A stretch of 64,000 bases of DNA, from the NCBI RefSeq assembly GCF_000166775.1, contig NC_014720.1, forward strand, positions 1,916,501 to 1,980,500, given 5' to 3'. A program made the position numbers and the translations under genes. The notes beneath the pieces are model-generated. The model saw nothing but the letters and a program-made list of their open reading frames with translations, made no database searches and was not told the DNA's origin. This document shows, one piece after another, positions 1-7,200 of the stretch; position 1 is the first letter of the stretch; every line of letters begins with the position of its first letter. The stretch is from Caldicellulosiruptor kronotskyensis 2002. Its GTDB lineage: Bacteria > Bacillota > Thermoanaerobacteria > Caldicellulosiruptorales > Caldicellulosiruptoraceae.

Positions 1-432
1 AAAATAACCTGCTAAACATATTAAGGCTGAAAAAACTGAAGAATAATGAACATAAAAACACTTTACTATATCATTAAAGTCCTGCTCTAATCTATTTAAA
101 ATCTCACCTTGTCCATATTTTTCTATTAATGAATATTTGTTATTCAAAAACAACATAAATAACTTTTTCTTTAGTTCAATAATTCTATTCTCTTTAAAAA
201 ATTCAATTAACAATGAAAAAAATAATTTGCCAGAAATAATAATAAGATAAATTAAAAGAAAGGTAACTACATTACATATAAAAACCTCCATATCTTTTTG
301 GATAGCTAATGAAAATAATTTAGCAAAGGTATTAGAAATATATATGTTTATGATACCCTCAATTAAATTTATAAAAACAATGAAAATAGTAGGTAATAAC
401 AATACTATTTTTACATAGTATTTAAAATTCAT
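1..432 (-). CDS. ABC exporter, N-terminal part (runs off the left edge)
   Basis: Reading down from an ATG at 432 there is an open frame of 144 codons with no stop before the window edge. The protein starts MNFKYYVKIV and has two strongly hydrophobic stretches (about residues 7-28 and 55-72). They are followed by a helical segment with YSLIEKYGQGEILNRLEQD, the pattern of the first cytoplasmic loop of type I ABC exporter membrane domains (usually E.G.i..R...D). The ATP-binding domain would lie outside the window. It starts 45 bp after the kinase-like gene at 477-1538 and is last in the visible peptide operon, so export of the mature peptide is the likely role. Whether it carries a C39 peptidase cannot be seen, but the N-terminus goes straight into membrane helices, which argues against one. 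Confidence 0.75.
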   Translation of the reverse strand, partial: MNFKYYVKIVLLLPTIFIVFINLIEGIINIYISNTFAKLFSLAIQKDMEVFICNVVTFLLIYLIIISGKLFFSLLIEFFKENRIIELKKKLFMLFLNNKYSLIEKYGQGEILNRLEQDFNDIVKCFYVHYSSVFSALICLAGYF

Positions 433-476
433 CCTTTTGCACCCTTCCCCAATAAATATAAGCTTATTCAATAATT

Positions 477-1538
477 CTACTCTGTATTGTTATATAAATT
501 ATCTAATAACCAATTACATGTTACTTTTGAATCAATCACCTTTTCTTCTAAATTCCAATCTGGCAAAAGTAATCTGTAATAGGTACATTTATTAGAAAGC
601 TTCTCAAATAACTCAAGTGGAATGTACAAATCAACAATTCGTTTGTTAGGATTAATTTTATTCTTCAAAAAAAAATATAACGCTTCTTTCCTATTTAATC
701 TTTTTATTTTCGGTTCACTTATTGGCACTTTTTCTACAAATATAACATAATCAATCTTTGAAAAAGCAATAAATTTATCTCCCAAAACCTCTCTTGCTTT
801 ATAATATGTTTGACAATTATCACAATATAATGGTTTATGATTATTCGTTAACAAAGACCAATAATTATACAATAACTTATTATTTCTATCAACCCTCAAT
901 CCTATGCTTTCATCAATACAATATCCAGTTATATCATTTGATATTATTAAGCAAATAAGATCATTTGATAACAATTTACCTCCCTCATATATTAATTGCA
1001 ACGCCAAGGTTGACTTCCCTACTTCACTTTCACCTACAAAAATTATACCTTTATCGCCTATTTTTACAGCAGAAGCGTGCAAAGGTAAACTAAAATGAGA
1101 ATACAGTGAACTAGCAATATAAAATTCAATTATTGATTCACAACAAGTAATTGAAGCTGGACTATTTTGATTTAAAAATACTTTTAAATATCGATTTTCA
1201 TAACTATATACTAAGCAAGAAAGAATTACATCTTTTTCTCTTTGCACTATTATTCTAAATTTATTGTTTTCGAAATGATATAATTCCGGTATATAAGTAA
1301 CATTCAAAGTTTTATTGTAATTCTTTAATTTTGATACGAATTCATTGAAGTTATTTTGTATTTTAAATTTTGTTCTTATATCTATTAATAAAGTTCTTTC
1401 ATTTTTTTGTAACACATTTTTATAATCCATAAATTTACAAAATCTCTCAATTAAATTTATGTCATCACACCTTATAATTAAATCCAAAACTGGTAATTTA
1501 AATCTTTTAATTGTAATTGATGATTTGCTATTTTTCAA
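477..1538 (-). CDS. HPr kinase-like (PEP carboxykinase-fold) protein of a RiPP cluster
   Basis: Protein of about 353 residues. Its C-terminal half carries an HprK-type P-loop GESEVGKSTLAL (about residues 169-180), preceded by LHASAV and followed by a SND motif. The N-terminal half (about 150 residues) matches nothing I recognise. Such kinases lacking normal HPr context occur in RiPP clusters: PadeK-type kinases phosphorylate the C-terminal Ser of some lasso peptides, and ScmC belongs to the SynChlorMet cassettes. Here it follows a radical SAM enzyme by 53 bp. A GTG at 1550 is in frame, but the Shine-Dalgarno AGAGGTGA overlaps it, so I prefer the TTG at 1538. The substrate is inferred to be the precursor at 3400-3510, which has a run of three serines. 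A scaffold role without kinase activity is also possible. Confidence 0.7.
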   Translation of the reverse strand: MKNSKSSITIKRFKLPVLDLIIRCDDINLIERFCKFMDYKNVLQKNERTLLIDIRTKFKIQNNFNEFVSKLKNYNKTLNVTYIPELYHFENNKFRIIVQREKDVILSCLVYSYENRYLKVFLNQNSPASITCCESIIEFYIASSLYSHFSLPLHASAVKIGDKGIIFVGESEVGKSTLALQLIYEGGKLLSNDLICLIISNDITGYCIDESIGLRVDRNNKLLYNYWSLLTNNHKPLYCDNCQTYYKAREVLGDKFIAFSKIDYVIFVEKVPISEPKIKRLNRKEALYFFLKNKINPNKRIVDLYIPLELFEKLSNKCTYYRLLLPDWNLEEKVIDSKVTCNWLLDNLYNNTE

Positions 1539-1591
1539 ATTACAGTTCACCTCTTTATAATAATTTAGTTTAAATTATTAAATTTATAGGA

Positions 1592-2659
1592 TTATCTAAA
1601 TAAAAACGGAGTAAGTTTATCTCTATAGATATTATTAAACAACGTTTGAATACATACAAGCGGAGATGGATATGTTATATCATTCCAATATTTATAGTTT
1701 TTTGCTATACATACAACACAATCATGCAATAATTCACATCTTAAACATTTTTGAAATGCATGATCTTTGACTTTTCTTATCTCCTCTATTAAAGTATTTC
1801 CATTAATTATTTCTTTGAACGATTTTTCCTTTAAATTATCTACGTTTTTGATATAGTGTTCTTTATCAATTACAAACTCCGGACAAGGATATACATATCC
1901 TTTATAATCTATAAAAAACGAACTTCTTCCCGCTTTGCATGTTATTCTTTTTTTAGAGGAATTTTCCTTGATTGTTCTAGAAAACTTTTCAAACATGCTT
2001 CTGAACGTTTTTACTTCATCAAAATTAAGCATATACATACTCCTCTTGAAATAATCTCCACTATAAGTTGGGGCAATTTCTACATCAGCAAACCATTCAA
2101 CATTTAATTTAGAAACTATTTCTTCTAACTTCTTTAAAGAAGGTAATCCTTGTTTTGTAACTACTGTTTTAATGACTAAATTAGCATTATATATCTTTAA
2201 AAGATATACAGCATTTAATGCTTTTTCCCATGCCCCCTCTTTTCTTACAAGAAAATCATGAATCGACGGTTCACCAGCATGAATACTAATTTCAATCTTC
2301 CCAAATAGTCTAGTTATGTCCTTTGCAACCACACTATCTTGAATTAATTCCCCATTTGTATACAATATCAACCCCATTCCTTTTTTTCTTGCATAATTAG
2401 CAATATCAAATATATCATTTCTCAATAACGGTTCCCCGCCTGTTATTGTAACAACAAAAGTTCCCATAGAAGATAATTCATCTAAAATATTAAAATACTC
2501 ATCTGTCTTTAATTCACCTTCTTCATGCTTCTCAATATAGCAAAATCTGCAATCCCAAGTACATTTTCTTGTTATCTCACAAACAATTTCAACTGGGTAA
2601 TTATCTTCTATTATCTTGCTTAAAATTCTATAAACATTCACTATTTTGTCAACCTCCAT
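1592..2659 (-). CDS. Radical SAM/SPASM peptide maturase
   Basis: 355-residue protein. CTWDCRFC (Cys33, Cys37, Cys40) is the CX3CX2C radical SAM cluster site, and TITGGEP near residue 75 is the SAM-binding GGEP motif. The C-terminal third has a SPASM-like set of cysteines (a CPE motif, then KCLRCELLHDCVVC and a last Cys near residue 340) that would hold auxiliary Fe-S clusters. SPASM enzymes make thioether, C-C or C-O crosslinks in peptides. The ATG overlaps the stop of the PqqD-like gene by one base (TAATG), so the two are translationally coupled. That fits the PqqD-like protein presenting the leader to this enzyme. The type of crosslink cannot be read from sequence; the core peptide offers Cys, Trp, Arg, Ser and Thr. 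Confidence 0.85.
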   Translation of the reverse strand: MEVDKIVNVYRILSKIIEDNYPVEIVCEITRKCTWDCRFCYIEKHEEGELKTDEYFNILDELSSMGTFVVTITGGEPLLRNDIFDIANYARKKGMGLILYTNGELIQDSVVAKDITRLFGKIEISIHAGEPSIHDFLVRKEGAWEKALNAVYLLKIYNANLVIKTVVTKQGLPSLKKLEEIVSKLNVEWFADVEIAPTYSGDYFKRSMYMLNFDEVKTFRSMFEKFSRTIKENSSKKRITCKAGRSSFFIDYKGYVYPCPEFVIDKEHYIKNVDNLKEKSFKEIINGNTLIEEIRKVKDHAFQKCLRCELLHDCVVCIAKNYKYWNDITYPSPLVCIQTLFNNIYRDKLTPFLFR

Positions 2660-2934
2660 TAATTGTTCTCAAGTACTAACTTTTTTTCAATTAACTCATT
2701 TATAAACTCGTTAACATCATTTAATGCTGTTTCAATTGAGCAATCAAAACTATTTGCTAAATTCGTTGCTATTTCTTCAGGATCAGTTATACCATTTACT
2801 AAACACTCCCATATAAAAGTAGCAGTTTCATTGAATATACAATAATTTTCATTTTTTAATGAGTATACAACAATTAAGTCGTCAATCTTTGCATAACCAA
2901 TATCTGGAGCAGGAACTATATGCTCTTTTTTCAT
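2659..2934 (-). CDS. PqqD-like RiPP recognition element
   Basis: 91-residue stand-alone PqqD-type protein: an N-terminal beta-rich part (IVVYSLKNENYCIFNETA), then a FIWECL...G.T..EI helical region and a C-terminal helix, as in PqqD and lasso B1 proteins. These bind the leader peptide and hand it to the processing enzymes. It lies between the B2-like peptidase gene (18 bp gap) and the radical SAM gene (1-bp overlap). The ATG is at 2934, preceded by AAGGAG. The leader motif Y..P of the predicted precursor is the kind of signal this family binds. Confidence 0.85.
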   Translation of the reverse strand: MKKEHIVPAPDIGYAKIDDLIVVYSLKNENYCIFNETATFIWECLVNGITDPEEIATNLANSFDCSIETALNDVNEFINELIEKKLVLENN

Positions 2935-2952: not shown

Positions 2953-3336
2953 CTATATTGTATAAATGTATGCTTTCTTATAAATTTGCTGAACATTTCC
3001 TCTTTCAAACATAGGTATGTCATCAATTTCTATCCAAGCATGCCCTAAAATTTTTTTATGATTTTCTGTTTTTTCGCACCGAAAACCAATTACTAAGGAT
3101 ACTTTTCCTTTGTAATTACTACATAAATAGAATAAAATCAATGACCGTTTTAAACATGTTAACTTCAATTTTTCAAATATAAAATTATTATCTATAATTT
3201 TACAACATTTTTCTGCTACTTGGATAATATCTGTTAATTCCTTATTTTTTTTAGATTTTCTCTTTATGTATTCTACTACCTTTTGCAAATTTGCAAACTT
3301 ATATAATACTAAAATATAAAATATTCCCATAATCAT
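2953..3336 (-). CDS. Transglutaminase-fold leader peptidase (lasso B2-like)
   Basis: Small protein of about 127 residues, a little shorter than typical B2 proteins (about 140-150). The conserved Cys is in LTCLKRSLILFYL and the conserved His in LGHAWIEID, followed by Asp, giving the Cys-His-Asp triad of the Transglut_core3 family. In lasso clusters this protein cuts off the leader. A hydrophobic segment occupies the first 15 residues. The reading frame can start with GTG at 3348, but the ribosome site GAAAGGTGA fits the ATG at 3336 better. It follows the precursor gene after a strong hairpin at 3357-3381, so it is probably made in smaller amounts than the precursor. Confidence 0.75.
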   Translation of the reverse strand: MIMGIFYILVLYKFANLQKVVEYIKRKSKKNKELTDIIQVAEKCCKIIDNNFIFEKLKLTCLKRSLILFYLCSNYKGKVSLVIGFRCEKTENHKKILGHAWIEIDDIPMFERGNVQQIYKKAYIYTI

Positions 3337-3356
3337 AATTAATTTCACCTTTCTTT

Positions 3357-3381
3357 AGAGCCGAGGGACTCCCCCGGCTCT
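3357..3381 (-). terminator. Hairpin between precursor and processing genes (attenuator)
   Basis: The arms GAGCCG and CGGCTC continue inward through three G-C pairs and one G-U pair to a 3-base loop. No U run follows, so it is more likely a partial terminator or an mRNA-end stabiliser than a full stop. This position, directly behind a precursor gene, is common in RiPP operons, where the precursor must outnumber its enzymes. Confidence 0.6.
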
Positions 3382-3399
3382 TTAGTTGTTTCAAGACAT

Positions 3400-3510
3400 T
3401 CATCTGCACCACGTTCTACAACGACTACTACTTCTGCCTCCACTTAATACTACTGTTTCAAGATTACCAATTTCTATTATTTCAGGCTTTACATATATTT
3501 TTTTACTCAT
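3400..3510 (-). CDS. RiPP precursor peptide (36 aa)
   Basis: Short gene with a consensus ribosome site (AGGAGGTGA, 5 bases before the ATG at 3510). The leader contains YVKPEIIEIGNLE, matching the Y..P.(I/L)...G pattern of lasso-type leaders bound by PqqD-like proteins. The C-terminal part, SGGRSSSRCRTWCR, is a plausible core: glycines, three serines, two cysteines, one tryptophan and four arginines. It is followed at once by a hairpin and then by the leader peptidase, PqqD-like, radical SAM, kinase-like and exporter genes on the same strand. The cleavage site is inferred to lie near LSGG. With no lasso cyclase visible, a crosslinked rather than lassoed product is likely. That this is a real gene rests on the ribosome site, the leader motif and the position. 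Confidence 0.75.
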   Translation of the reverse strand: MSKKIYVKPEIIEIGNLETVVLSGGRSSSRCRTWCR

Positions 3511-3540
3511 TCTTTCACCTCCTTCTTACTATATTAATTT

Positions 3541-3648
3541 TTAACCTTTTGCATAAACGCTCAAAATGAGCGTTATCAAGCTCTTTGCTAATTTCAAAAA
3601 ATCTAGCCCCTCTGTCACTATATCTTGTTTAGCACGTGTTGAAGACAT
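3541..3648 (-). CDS. Small ORF of unknown function upstream of the precursor
   Basis: 35-codon ORF (starts MSSTRAKQDI, ends SVYAKG) with a good ribosome site AGGTGG 5 bases before the ATG. It ends 30 bp before the precursor gene. The C-terminal half (FLKLAKSLITLILSVYAKG) is an amphipathic to hydrophobic helix. It has no leader motif and no Cys, so it does not look like a second precursor. Its last codons contain the inverted repeat at 3556-3574. It could be a leader ORF, a small membrane peptide or a chance frame. Its start overlaps the end of a transposase remnant in another frame. Confidence 0.35.
   Translation of the reverse strand: MSSTRAKQDIVTEGLDFLKLAKSLITLILSVYAKG
3556..3574. repeat. 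Inverted repeat AACGCTCA-AAA-TGAGCGTT
   Basis: Perfect 8-bp arms around a 3-base centre. The same arm sequence recurs in the longer palindrome at 3828-3854. Two copies flanking the start region of the peptide operon could be operators or remnants of a small mobile element. Confidence 0.6.
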
Positions 3649-3827: not shown

Positions 3828-3854
3828 ATAAAACGCTCATTATGAGCGTTTTAT
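3828..3854. repeat. 27-bp perfect palindrome
   Basis: The half site ATAAAACGCTCAT is repeated inverted around a single central T at 3841. It shares the AACGCTCA arm with 3556-3574. No U run follows on either strand, so it is not an ordinary terminator. Confidence 0.6.
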
Positions 3855-4195
3855 GTAATAGTTTAGATTACCAAGTGTCAAATCATTCTTTTGTAAGATA
3901 AAATTGAACCTCAATAATTATATATTAAGCATGTTTTAATATTTTCTTTTTTATATTCTCTGGTATACCATCCTATTTGCATATAAACTATCTCATTTAC
4001 GAGAGGCAATATGTAAATTGCTATATTTATTAATATTCTCCTTGGAATTTTCACCTCAATTTTACTTTATTAATTTTTATCCTGTCAAACTTCGTTTTTT
4101 TTTTTTTTTAGTTTAATTTCATGCAATTTTTAGCTATCAGCTCCCTCTTTCTTTTAATATCTCTAAATTTCTTAAATTCTCTCTTGTTTTTTCAC
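3855..4195. other. AT-rich gap without a convincing gene
   Basis: It contains a 47-codon minus-strand frame (3911-4054, starting GTG AAA ATT CCA) with no spaced ribosome site and no family I recognise, and a run of about 14 T residues near 4097-4110. I see no RNA gene here. Confidence 0.4.
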
Positions 4196-4230
4196 AAACA
4201 AAAAGCTGCCCCCTTCTCTGGAGGCAGCTA
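4196..4230 (-). terminator. Intrinsic terminator of the MMPL gene
   Basis: Ten-base-pair stem (AGCTGCC at its base) formed by 4204-4213 and 4220-4229, followed on the minus strand by TTTTTGTTTG. It sits 26 bp after the stop codon. Confidence 0.85.
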
Positions 4231-4255
4231 TCTAAATTGCTTTTTAAAAGCATTT

Positions 4256-7200
4256 TTAAACTATATCCCTTTTTATCCTCATCAAAGTATTGTACAAAAA
4301 TGGCAGCAGGAAAAATGCAAGCAGAACAAGGCCTATCACAACACAGATGGAAACCTGCATGAGTGTCAAAATCCCAGATGGCAGCATTGCCGCAAATGTG
4401 CCGGCTAAAATTATCACTGCTGATGTTACAACATGACCAATGTTTGCTGAAGTGAGCCTGAGTGCTTCGTTCATCTCTAAGTCTTTATATTCATAAAACC
4501 TTATCAGCAAGAATACACTGTAGTCTATTCCAAGAGCTAAGAACACAACAAAGGTGAAAAATGGCACTGCCCAGTTGAGTGCTTCGTACTTGAATATTCC
4601 TTTGAAAATCATCTCTGTTATAGAGAGTGCAAGGTAGTAGTCGACAAAAACTATCACCACCATTATTGCAGCATTAAAGATTGACCTTGAAATTAGGAAC
4701 ATGAGAATAAAGATGCTTATTATCATTATTAGTCTCAAAGTCTTAAAATCTTTAAAATAAATGCTCTTCAAATCATGGTTTGAAGATGATATCCCACCAA
4801 CTCCTACCGACACAAACTTTGTGTTTATAAACTCTAAAGAGTTATTTAAAACCTTTTCCACATTATCAACAATATCAATTGCCTTGTTTGTATACGGATT
4901 TGTGTCAAGAATCAAGATTATCTTTGTTATTGTTCTATCTTTGTTCATATATGAATCTAAAGCCTTTTTGAAGCTACTGCTTTTTATAGCTTCTGGTGGG
5001 ACGTAAAAGATGTTTGTTGTTTTGTATCCTTCAAAATAACTCTTCATACTCTGCATAGAATTTGCCATCTTGTTAAGTGCATCAGAAATCTGTAAAAGAG
5101 CTGATTTTAAGCTTGTAAACCCTGTCTGAAGTTCATCAACTTTTTTTAGAATCTGTTCTTTTTGTTTCTCAAATTCCTGAAGTTTTGAATACATAAGTTT
5201 TACACCTGAGATTATTTGTTTTTGACCTTTGTCAATTTGATAGTAGCCACTTAGAACCTTCCCTTGAGCATCAGCAAGCTGTTTTGAAGCTGAAGCTATG
5301 CTATTAATAGAATTTGAAATAAGCTTCAGAGCTTTGTCAGCTTCATTTATCTGGGCTGAAATCTTTTCATATTCAGAAGAAAACTCTTTTAACTTTGGAG
5401 CAAACTTATTTGCTTCAGTTTCAATTTTTGATAAAATCTCAGATGCCGTAATATAATTGATATCCCTTGAGATTTCCGGATACTTATTTGAAAGTGCTTT
5501 TAAATTGTTATTAGCAGTATTAATACCTGTCAATAAAAGTTCAATTTGATTTACATCAAATCCCTGTAATTCACTTTTTACCTTATTTATTGACCTTGTA
5601 TACTCAAAATAGAATTCTTTAAAGCCTTCAGACAGCTTGCTGCTTCCAATTGAAAGCTTATTAAGACCATCATATATCTTCTTAGAACCATTTAACCCCT
5701 GTTCAAATCCACTGTTTAGTTTTTCTAAAGAAATTTTCAATTCATATACACCATTTTCAAGCTGTGAAATGCCAGTTACAAGTTTTTGAACATCAAATTC
5801 TTTTGTTGACATATTTAAATTTTTGTTTATAGTCTCAATTGCATTGTTAACTTTCAAAAGACCATTTCTCAAACTATCAATACCTTTTATAACAGTATTT
5901 GCTTGGTTTGACAAACTAAATTGTTTTATAATCTGCCCTTCAGGTCTTGTGACTGAATACACATCTTTTATACCTTTTTGCTTACTCAATATCTCAGTTA
6001 TTTTTTCAATGTCAGATAATGCGTCAGAAGTTGCTAAACTCTTATTAGATTTCAAATAAATGGTAACAGGAAATGTCTTACCGCTACTGAAGTTTTTTGA
6101 AATTATGTTAAATCCCTTCACAGATTTGTATTTTTCAGAAAGTTCGTTTAGTGTGTTAAATGATAAATCGCCTCTCACTGATAAGAGAAAAGGTATCAAG
6201 ATTAAAATAACTGTTGTCAACACCACATAAGGATATTTAGTTGAAAGTCTTGCAGCAGCTTCCCAGAGTCTGCTATGGGTGTGCTGTATTTCTTTATTAA
6301 ATGGCCAGAGAAGATTTTTACCAAAAATTTTGAGTACAGCAGGAACCAGTGTCAAAAGCACAAGTAAAAGCACAAGCACACTTACTGCAATTGCTGACAT
6401 TGCCCTGAAAAAGTTAAAAGACGCTGCCGCAAAAGCCGCAAAACCTGTAAAAACCGCAAGACAGCTAAATACCACTGTTTTTCCTGCTGTTTTAAACGTT
6501 GTTATTATTGCATCATCAACATCTTTCCCATTTGCAAGCTCTTCTCTGAACCTTGAAATAATCAATAGATTATAATCCGTCCCAATTCCAAATAGGGATA
6601 CAACTATAAATGTTCTTGTAAAAGTATTGATTGGAAAATTAAACTTATCTGCTAAGTGCCCAACTATGCTAAGTGAGATTAAAAACGAAACACCAACTGT
6701 TAAAAGTGAAACAATTGGAGTGACAGGCGAGCGGAAAACAAGGACCAACACAATGATTATAAATACAATTGTGATGACATCGGTCTTTTTAACACCATCT
6801 TCTGAAGCCTTTACAAAGTCTTGGGTAATTAAATCTCCACCTGTCAGATACACTTCTAAACTCTTTGGTTTTCTAACAGAATCTATAAACTTATAAATAT
6901 CGTCTCTTATCTCAATAATTTCTCTCTTTGACTTGTCTGCCTGAATGCTTGCAAGGATAACCTTGTTGTTGCCTGATACGTAGTAGTTTTTTAGCTCAGG
7001 ATTCTTGAAATGAGTTGAAATATTTTCAATGTTGTATTTTTCTCTGTTACTGTTAAGTCCATAAATTATCTTTTTAATTGCCACAATGTCTTCATCTGAA
7101 AGACCATTTTTGTCATAAAATACAATTGCTACTGTTGAAAGCTTTTTATCCTTTGGTACTCCCTGATATTCTTTTTCTAACGCTGCTGCAACTTGAGATG

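Follow-up and report, generated by a model that had tools for sequence, protein, structure and literature searches.

The window, by which we mean the whole 64,000-nucleotide stretch of Caldicellulosiruptor kronotskyensis 2002 DNA analysed here, contains the first genes of a minus-strand operon, which runs on beyond its edge and whose leading gene, A, encodes a short peptide. A is followed by genes for a B2 peptidase, a PqqD/RRE protein, a radical SAM/SPASM enzyme, an HprK-like kinase, two ABC exporters and an NTP_transf_5 protein. The operon and its surroundings comprise:

3400..3510, minus strand: precursor gene A (ATG start, 36 aa, MSKKIYVKPEIIEIGNLETVVLSGGRSSSRCRTWCR), identified from the ORF list, the ribosome-binding site and orthologs in three lineages
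3360..3384, minus strand: hairpin in the gap separating A from B2 (-21 kcal/mol, z -4.3)
2953..3348, minus strand: B2-type leader peptidase, transglutaminase-like (PF13471, 6e-10; NF033537, above cut-off)
2659..2934, minus strand: discrete RRE of the PqqD family (PF05402, 2e-14)
1592..2659, minus strand: radical SAM/SPASM enzyme (PF04055, PF13186; CxxxCxxC plus seven SPASM cysteines)
477..1550, minus strand: HprK-like kinase (PF07475, 3.5e-7, below cut-off)
1..471, minus strand: beginning of one ABC exporter gene, the first of a pair, which continues outside the window
L009 12058-16972, minus strand, outside the window: remainder of the first ABC exporter, second ABC exporter and NTP_transf_5 protein
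3926..5462, no strand: right copy of a 1.5 kb direct repeat, imperfect (88% by blastn across 1538 bases) and made up of the 3' end of an MMPL-type gene
L009 10249-11780: left copy of the same MMPL-type repeat, flanking the cluster on the other side

The initial annotation had called a 36-residue precursor here, and its coordinates are exact. The consensus ribosome site it reported is an AGGAGG seven bases 5' of the ATG, and its count of two Cys, one Trp, four Arg and a Ser triplet is correct. At the equivalent place in Paenibacillus silagei, beside the orthologous enzyme, an ORF encodes a peptide 67% identical to A (tblastn E ~8e-8; BLASTP 7e-11), and 13 residues are invariant in an alignment of four precursors from three lineages. 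When 62 whole genomes were searched with a profile of these four precursors, E fell below 1e-20 solely in the four with an intact cluster; those genomes supplied the profile, so that their own scores are circular, which the absence elsewhere is not. All remaining matches, whether in the 11 further genomes of the genus, in a genome from a different genus of the family or in the decayed cluster described below, had E > 0.01. The hairpin between A and B2 likely stabilises or attenuates the transcript, and the Laceyella precursor is also trailed by a terminator-like hairpin. Because of the ortholog match, the invariant residues, the specificity of the profile and the stable hairpin, A exceeds what chance would offer for a 36-codon ORF; it is confirmed as a real ORF and is almost certainly a genuine RiPP precursor of the adjoining enzyme set. 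The absence of the ORF from genomes carrying the same enzymes had been named as evidence that would count against it; the ORF was found at the equivalent place in those genomes, since in each intact cluster a precursor gene lies immediately next to that of the radical SAM enzyme. Just upstream of A (window 3517-3600) lies a short dispersed repeat, possibly a MITE or REP-like element, with nine other copies in the genome that are 78-95% identical, and a palindrome-like AACGCTCATTATGAGCGTT is found near 3834-3853.

The cluster has a GC content of 25.5% versus 35% on either side, and the MMPL-type direct repeats around it are the trace of an insertion or duplication. It is absent from 11 of 11 other genomes of the genus and from one genome of another genus of the family. 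Given its low GC, the flanking repeats and its absence from the rest of the genus, the operon is apparently an acquired island.

Genome contigs from 84,980 species were scanned for orthologs of the radical SAM enzyme by a method that detects conserved stretches, so that members can be missed. Two clear orthologs, 38-39% identical, were found in Laceyella sediminis (L023) and P. silagei (L024), and the next full-length matches had ≤30% identity. Among 400 genomes searched from the Paenibacillus family, one more intact cluster (G626) and one decayed cluster (G664) came to light, bringing the Paenibacillus clusters to two intact and one decayed. A genome of the order of Laceyella (G824) carries a close radical SAM gene cut by the contig end, and no precursor was found in this fragment. 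Sampling 399 genomes across the phylum and another 400 within the class to which the Paenibacillus genome belongs yielded no further members. Scans of viral contigs and tblastn searches of plasmids yielded nothing beyond distantly related radical SAM proteins and housekeeping TlyA; among these, one 'plasmid' match carries the chromosomal recN-tlyA region.

In P. silagei and G626 the gene order is ABC-ABC-rSAM-A-B2-PqqD-HprK-NTase; in Laceyella it is rSAM-A-PqqD, then two tlyA-like genes on the same strand. The precursor adjoins the radical SAM gene in every intact cluster, and only radical SAM, A and RRE are common to all of them. The gene, the operon, their conservation and their co-occurrence are established by these observations. 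The Laceyella cluster lacks kinase, NTase and B2, and the sole B2 of that genome sits in a true lasso cluster on another contig (L103 1148-2710, with cyclase; precursor MKKNLKVEEPKLILVGTLEQCTGEDGNSTKDGWGYSPQDKKD). In the decayed cluster the precursor and most biosynthetic genes are deleted, and TlyA and the exporters are still open.

Several neighboring features deserve mention. The Paenibacillus clusters run on (L024 13006-16926, likewise L119) into genes for an acyl carrier protein and an FkbH-domain protein, together with a match to a DOT1-like methyltransferase; the peptide may therefore gain a glyceryl-type unit in these bacteria. A divergent XRE/TPR-type regulator-like gene lies near the Laceyella cluster (L023 6043-7389), in a stretch that also holds tyrosine recombinase genes. 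Another true lasso cluster with cyclase occurs in G021 (L018 8581-11443; precursor ending in YSKPSIIKYGSAIRIIKGSGGSKYESYASHARS). A separate family of radical SAM-associated precursors, with an F/Y-x-K-P leader and a conserved K-S-A-x-C-S-G core, is present in Macrococcoides, Clostridium, Lactococcus and Streptococcus (L020, L037, L042, L045, L046, L047, L049, L050).

The leader YVKPEIIEIG, the RRE and the B2 peptidase are all lasso-type, a feature that, like the B2, RRE and kinase genes themselves, was missing from the initial annotation's finding. The NCBIfam lasso leader model matches weakly, the RRE scores best in NCBIfam against lasso PqqD chaperones (without reaching their cut-off), and Cys65 and His103 of B2 are conserved in the alignment. 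YxxP/WxxP leaders are bound by RREs (PMC13381572), and by analogy the RRE would bind the A leader through Y-x-K-P-x-I. Lasso B2 enzymes prefer Thr, rarely Ile or Val, at position -2 (PMC10368454), and in studied leaders the Tyr/Trp is found at -15 to -17. Setting Thr19 at -2 puts Tyr6 at -15, the position of the paeninodin Trp, and makes Ser23 core Ser3. From this spacing and the Thr rule, B2 is predicted to cut at ETV/VLSGG. The core proposed earlier, SGGRSSSRCRTWCR, is probably too short; the same two considerations point to VLSGGRSSSRCRTWCR. A cut after Ser-Gly with Ser23 at -2 was dropped because Tyr would then fall at -19, outside the range of -15 to -17.

HprK-like kinases phosphorylate Ser3 of both BsfA (PMC10368454) and LppA, where a Ser3Thr change blocks the reaction (PMC13381572). 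The P-loop region of the kinase and its preceding His are kept in the P. silagei ortholog, and no family model matched the Paenibacillus kinase homologue at E <= 0.001. Across the three lineages, those with B2 and kinase have E-T-V-V-L-S, whereas Laceyella, with neither in its cluster, has E-A-V-A-F-T. This correlation between Ala and Thr at the two key Laceyella positions and the missing B2 and kinase is small-sample but pointed. As for the NTP_transf_5 protein, PsmN was reported to add a sugar to a phosphate (PMC9266682), and the homologue of the LPP system had no activity in the host tried (PMC13381572). The protein encoded here may likewise add a sugar to the Ser phosphate.

The four aligned precursors share K-x2-Y-x-K-P-x-I-x3-G-x2-E-x-V-x3-G and a core ending in S-x3-C-x-T-x-C (S27, C31, T33 and C35 in the window's numbering). 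All ten Fe-S cysteines are invariant in the three radical SAM orthologs, so the radical SAM chemistry is probably intact. The enzyme is below every curated maturase family cut-off, so that any assignment of crosslink type is one of analogy, not membership. An AlphaFold model built from three sequences had a mean pLDDT of 60 and was left out of fold searches. The ranthipeptide CteA has the same C-x-T spacing, with a C-gamma thioether joining Cys32 and Thr34, which earlier work had placed at Thr37 (PMC8326336). Our best guess by this analogy is a Cys-to-Thr thioether in C-x-T-x-C. The ring on the two cysteines that the initial annotation envisaged is plausible because C-x-T-x-C is invariant.

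Overall, the cluster is probably a RiPP operon that couples leader handling of the lasso type to a radical SAM/SPASM enzyme standing where the cyclase would be; its bond type, kinase site, cut site and export are predictions. The PqqD/RRE protein would hold the leader by its Y-x-K-P-x-I motif and the radical SAM enzyme would act on the S-x3-C-x-T-x-C tail, in all likelihood forming the Cys-to-Thr thioether, with the second Cys also crosslinked or left as thiol or disulfide. Ser23 (core Ser3) would be phosphorylated by the HprK-like kinase and its phosphate decorated by the NTP_transf_5 protein. B2 would release the core at the predicted site, with Thr19 at -2, and the ABC pair would export a product that is probably antibacterial.

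The strongest competitor concerns the partner of the cysteines: one or both may instead be joined, in sactipeptide-like fashion, to a Ser, Gly or Arg residue at its alpha carbon. The StsB-type sactipeptide maturase is among the best family matches of the radical SAM enzyme, SkfB is its best solved relative, and the Ser four residues before the first Cys is invariant, as is Gly. Thr, however, is the sole invariant residue within three positions of both cysteines, and the StsB family score (117 bits against a cut-off of 625) is far too low for membership; we regard such a ring as the less probable outcome, yet one to be taken seriously. A further possibility is that a lasso-derived cluster has simply lost its cyclase, the radical SAM step being minor and the product an essentially linear, LPP-like phosphopeptide with a disulfide. 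Kinase, NTase, RRE and leader do resemble those of LPP and paeninodin clusters, but the precursor always lies beside the radical SAM gene, and it is kinase, NTase and B2 that Laceyella does without, not radical SAM, A or RRE, which makes this reading improbable.

A carbon-carbon link from Trp, to Arg as originally suggested or to another residue, is very improbable. The window's core does contain CRTWCR, and WgkB-type enzymes are among the family matches of the radical SAM protein; but orthologs whose enzymes are 38-39% identical over their full length have CHTAC and CRTCC instead of CRTWC. Across the three lineages the Trp position is thus W/A/C and the residue before Thr R/H/R; of the four Arg in the window's core a single one recurs, in Laceyella. 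Because Trp is not conserved the link was rejected. That A is a chance ORF, as its shortness and its failure to reach any family's curated cut-off might suggest, has a negligible likelihood, being already refuted by the P. silagei match, the precursor alignment and the 62-genome profile search, which show sequence and position conserved in three lineages and the ORF missing where the enzyme is missing.

A housekeeping TlyA was present in all 36 genomes surveyed. An extra intact, full-length TlyA was found only in the four of them with the cluster or its remnant, as a pair in Laceyella; in one further genome a small contig bears an additional copy that is broken. A single clade with full support, apart from housekeeping TlyA, unites the Paenibacillus copies with the second of the Laceyella pair, its long branches calling for caution:

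L023 11496-12329: TlyA-like clade member
L024 4117-5061: TlyA-like clade member
L119 4134-5078: TlyA-like clade member
L120 4211-4981: TlyA-like clade member

Among the 36 genomes, this clade occurs only with the RiPP cluster or its remnant. Its members keep the four motifs holding K-D-K-E, which we take to be the four catalytic residues. That two lineages as distant as Paenibacillus and Laceyella each carry, next to the cluster, a dedicated TlyA-like rRNA 2'-O-methyltransferase suggests ribosome self-protection in these bacteria. TlyA in the G664 remnant fits retained immunity, which one deletion cannot show, and changes in the decayed cluster were too few for dN/dS to reveal whether TlyA is under selection. 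The methylation target of TlyA enzymes is C1920 of 23S rRNA and, in one subtype, also C1409 of 16S rRNA (PMC9403184). Against a ribosomal target are the window's genome, which has no second TlyA but only the housekeeping copy, and the increased capreomycin sensitivity conferred by known TlyA marks (PMC9403184). The ribosome is put forward as the product's target only tentatively.

Rather unlikely in its entirety is the reading that the system represents a new RiPP class. Its product would be a short, cationic peptide, crosslinked by the radical SAM enzyme within C-x-T-x-C, bearing a phosphate or phospho-sugar at Ser3 and trimmed by a lasso peptidase; it would bind the ribosome at the interface of the subunits, and a dedicated TlyA-like 2'-O-methyltransferase would counter it in Paenibacillus and Laceyella. 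Should the TlyA link hold, this interface will have been named as a likely target before the product is isolated. A lasso-type leader machinery working with a different core enzyme bears on the exchange of parts among RiPP classes. The variants found in nature, which have or lack B2, kinase and TlyA, diverge at precisely the two residues on which the absent enzymes would depend; swapping parts among them can therefore test what governs leader cleavage and Ser3 phosphorylation.

Compared with known systems, the cluster has the general makeup of a RiPP: a leader-conserved precursor beside an RRE, a modifying enzyme and an exporter. The YxxP leader, discrete RRE and B2 peptidase are those of lasso peptides. 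There is no Asn-synthetase-like cyclase in the cluster, the only full-length Asn_synthase of the whole genome being AsnB beside carA, and neither Asp nor Glu occurs at core positions 7-9 or anywhere after Glu18 in any precursor; without cyclase or acceptor residue, a lasso peptide was rejected. Paeninodin-type lasso clusters share the discrete RRE, B2, HprK-like kinase, NTP transferase and an aromatic residue at -15, but differ in their macrolactam cyclase, core Asp/Glu and leader Trp (Tyr here), and in the radical SAM enzyme present here.

The LPP system (PMC13381572) is likewise cyclase-free and has a discrete RRE, an HprK-like kinase, an NTP transferase and an MsbA-like ABC exporter, together with a YxxP leader in which E-T stands close to the cut and is followed by a Ser a few positions later. 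It differs in its SpI-type peptidase, which cuts after T(-1), and no radical SAM enzyme is mentioned for it. No SpI-type (SipW-like) peptidase is found among the cluster's ORFs, each of which is accounted for, and B2 is present instead. Compared with the LPP leader YxxPxVLxHQxIxFETxxS, YVKPEIIEIGNLETVVLS has YxxP, ET and Ser, lacks the HQ motif and has one more residue before Ser; the C-x-T-x-C core is a further difference.

With ranthipeptides and sactipeptides the cluster shares a radical SAM enzyme whose SPASM domain has seven cysteines for auxiliary clusters; the enzyme scores far below the known maturase cut-offs. Ranthipeptides (CteA/CteB, NxxcA, freyrasin/PapB; PMC8326336) have the full cysteine set and, in CteA, the Cys-x-Thr thioether spacing; here, the precursors are not of the SCIFF type, the enzyme is below the PapB cut-off, and a short Arg/Ser-rich core follows a lasso-type leader with B2. 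StsB/StsC sactipeptides also pair a radical SAM/SPASM enzyme with a separate RRE reading a W/Y-x-x-P-type leader (PMC12710340), but B2, kinase and NTase are additional here. The core Trp and partner of Trp-linked RiPPs (streptide, WgkB, Trp-Arg type) are not conserved across the orthologs. RRE-Finder located ~300 lasso-type RREs near radical SAM enzymes (PMC7470986); in the open-access literature we found no description of B2, RRE, radical SAM, HprK and NTase with a C-x-T-x-C core, nor of a TlyA link. Within that literature the combination is new, and the parts of RiPP logic that it brings together are already known.
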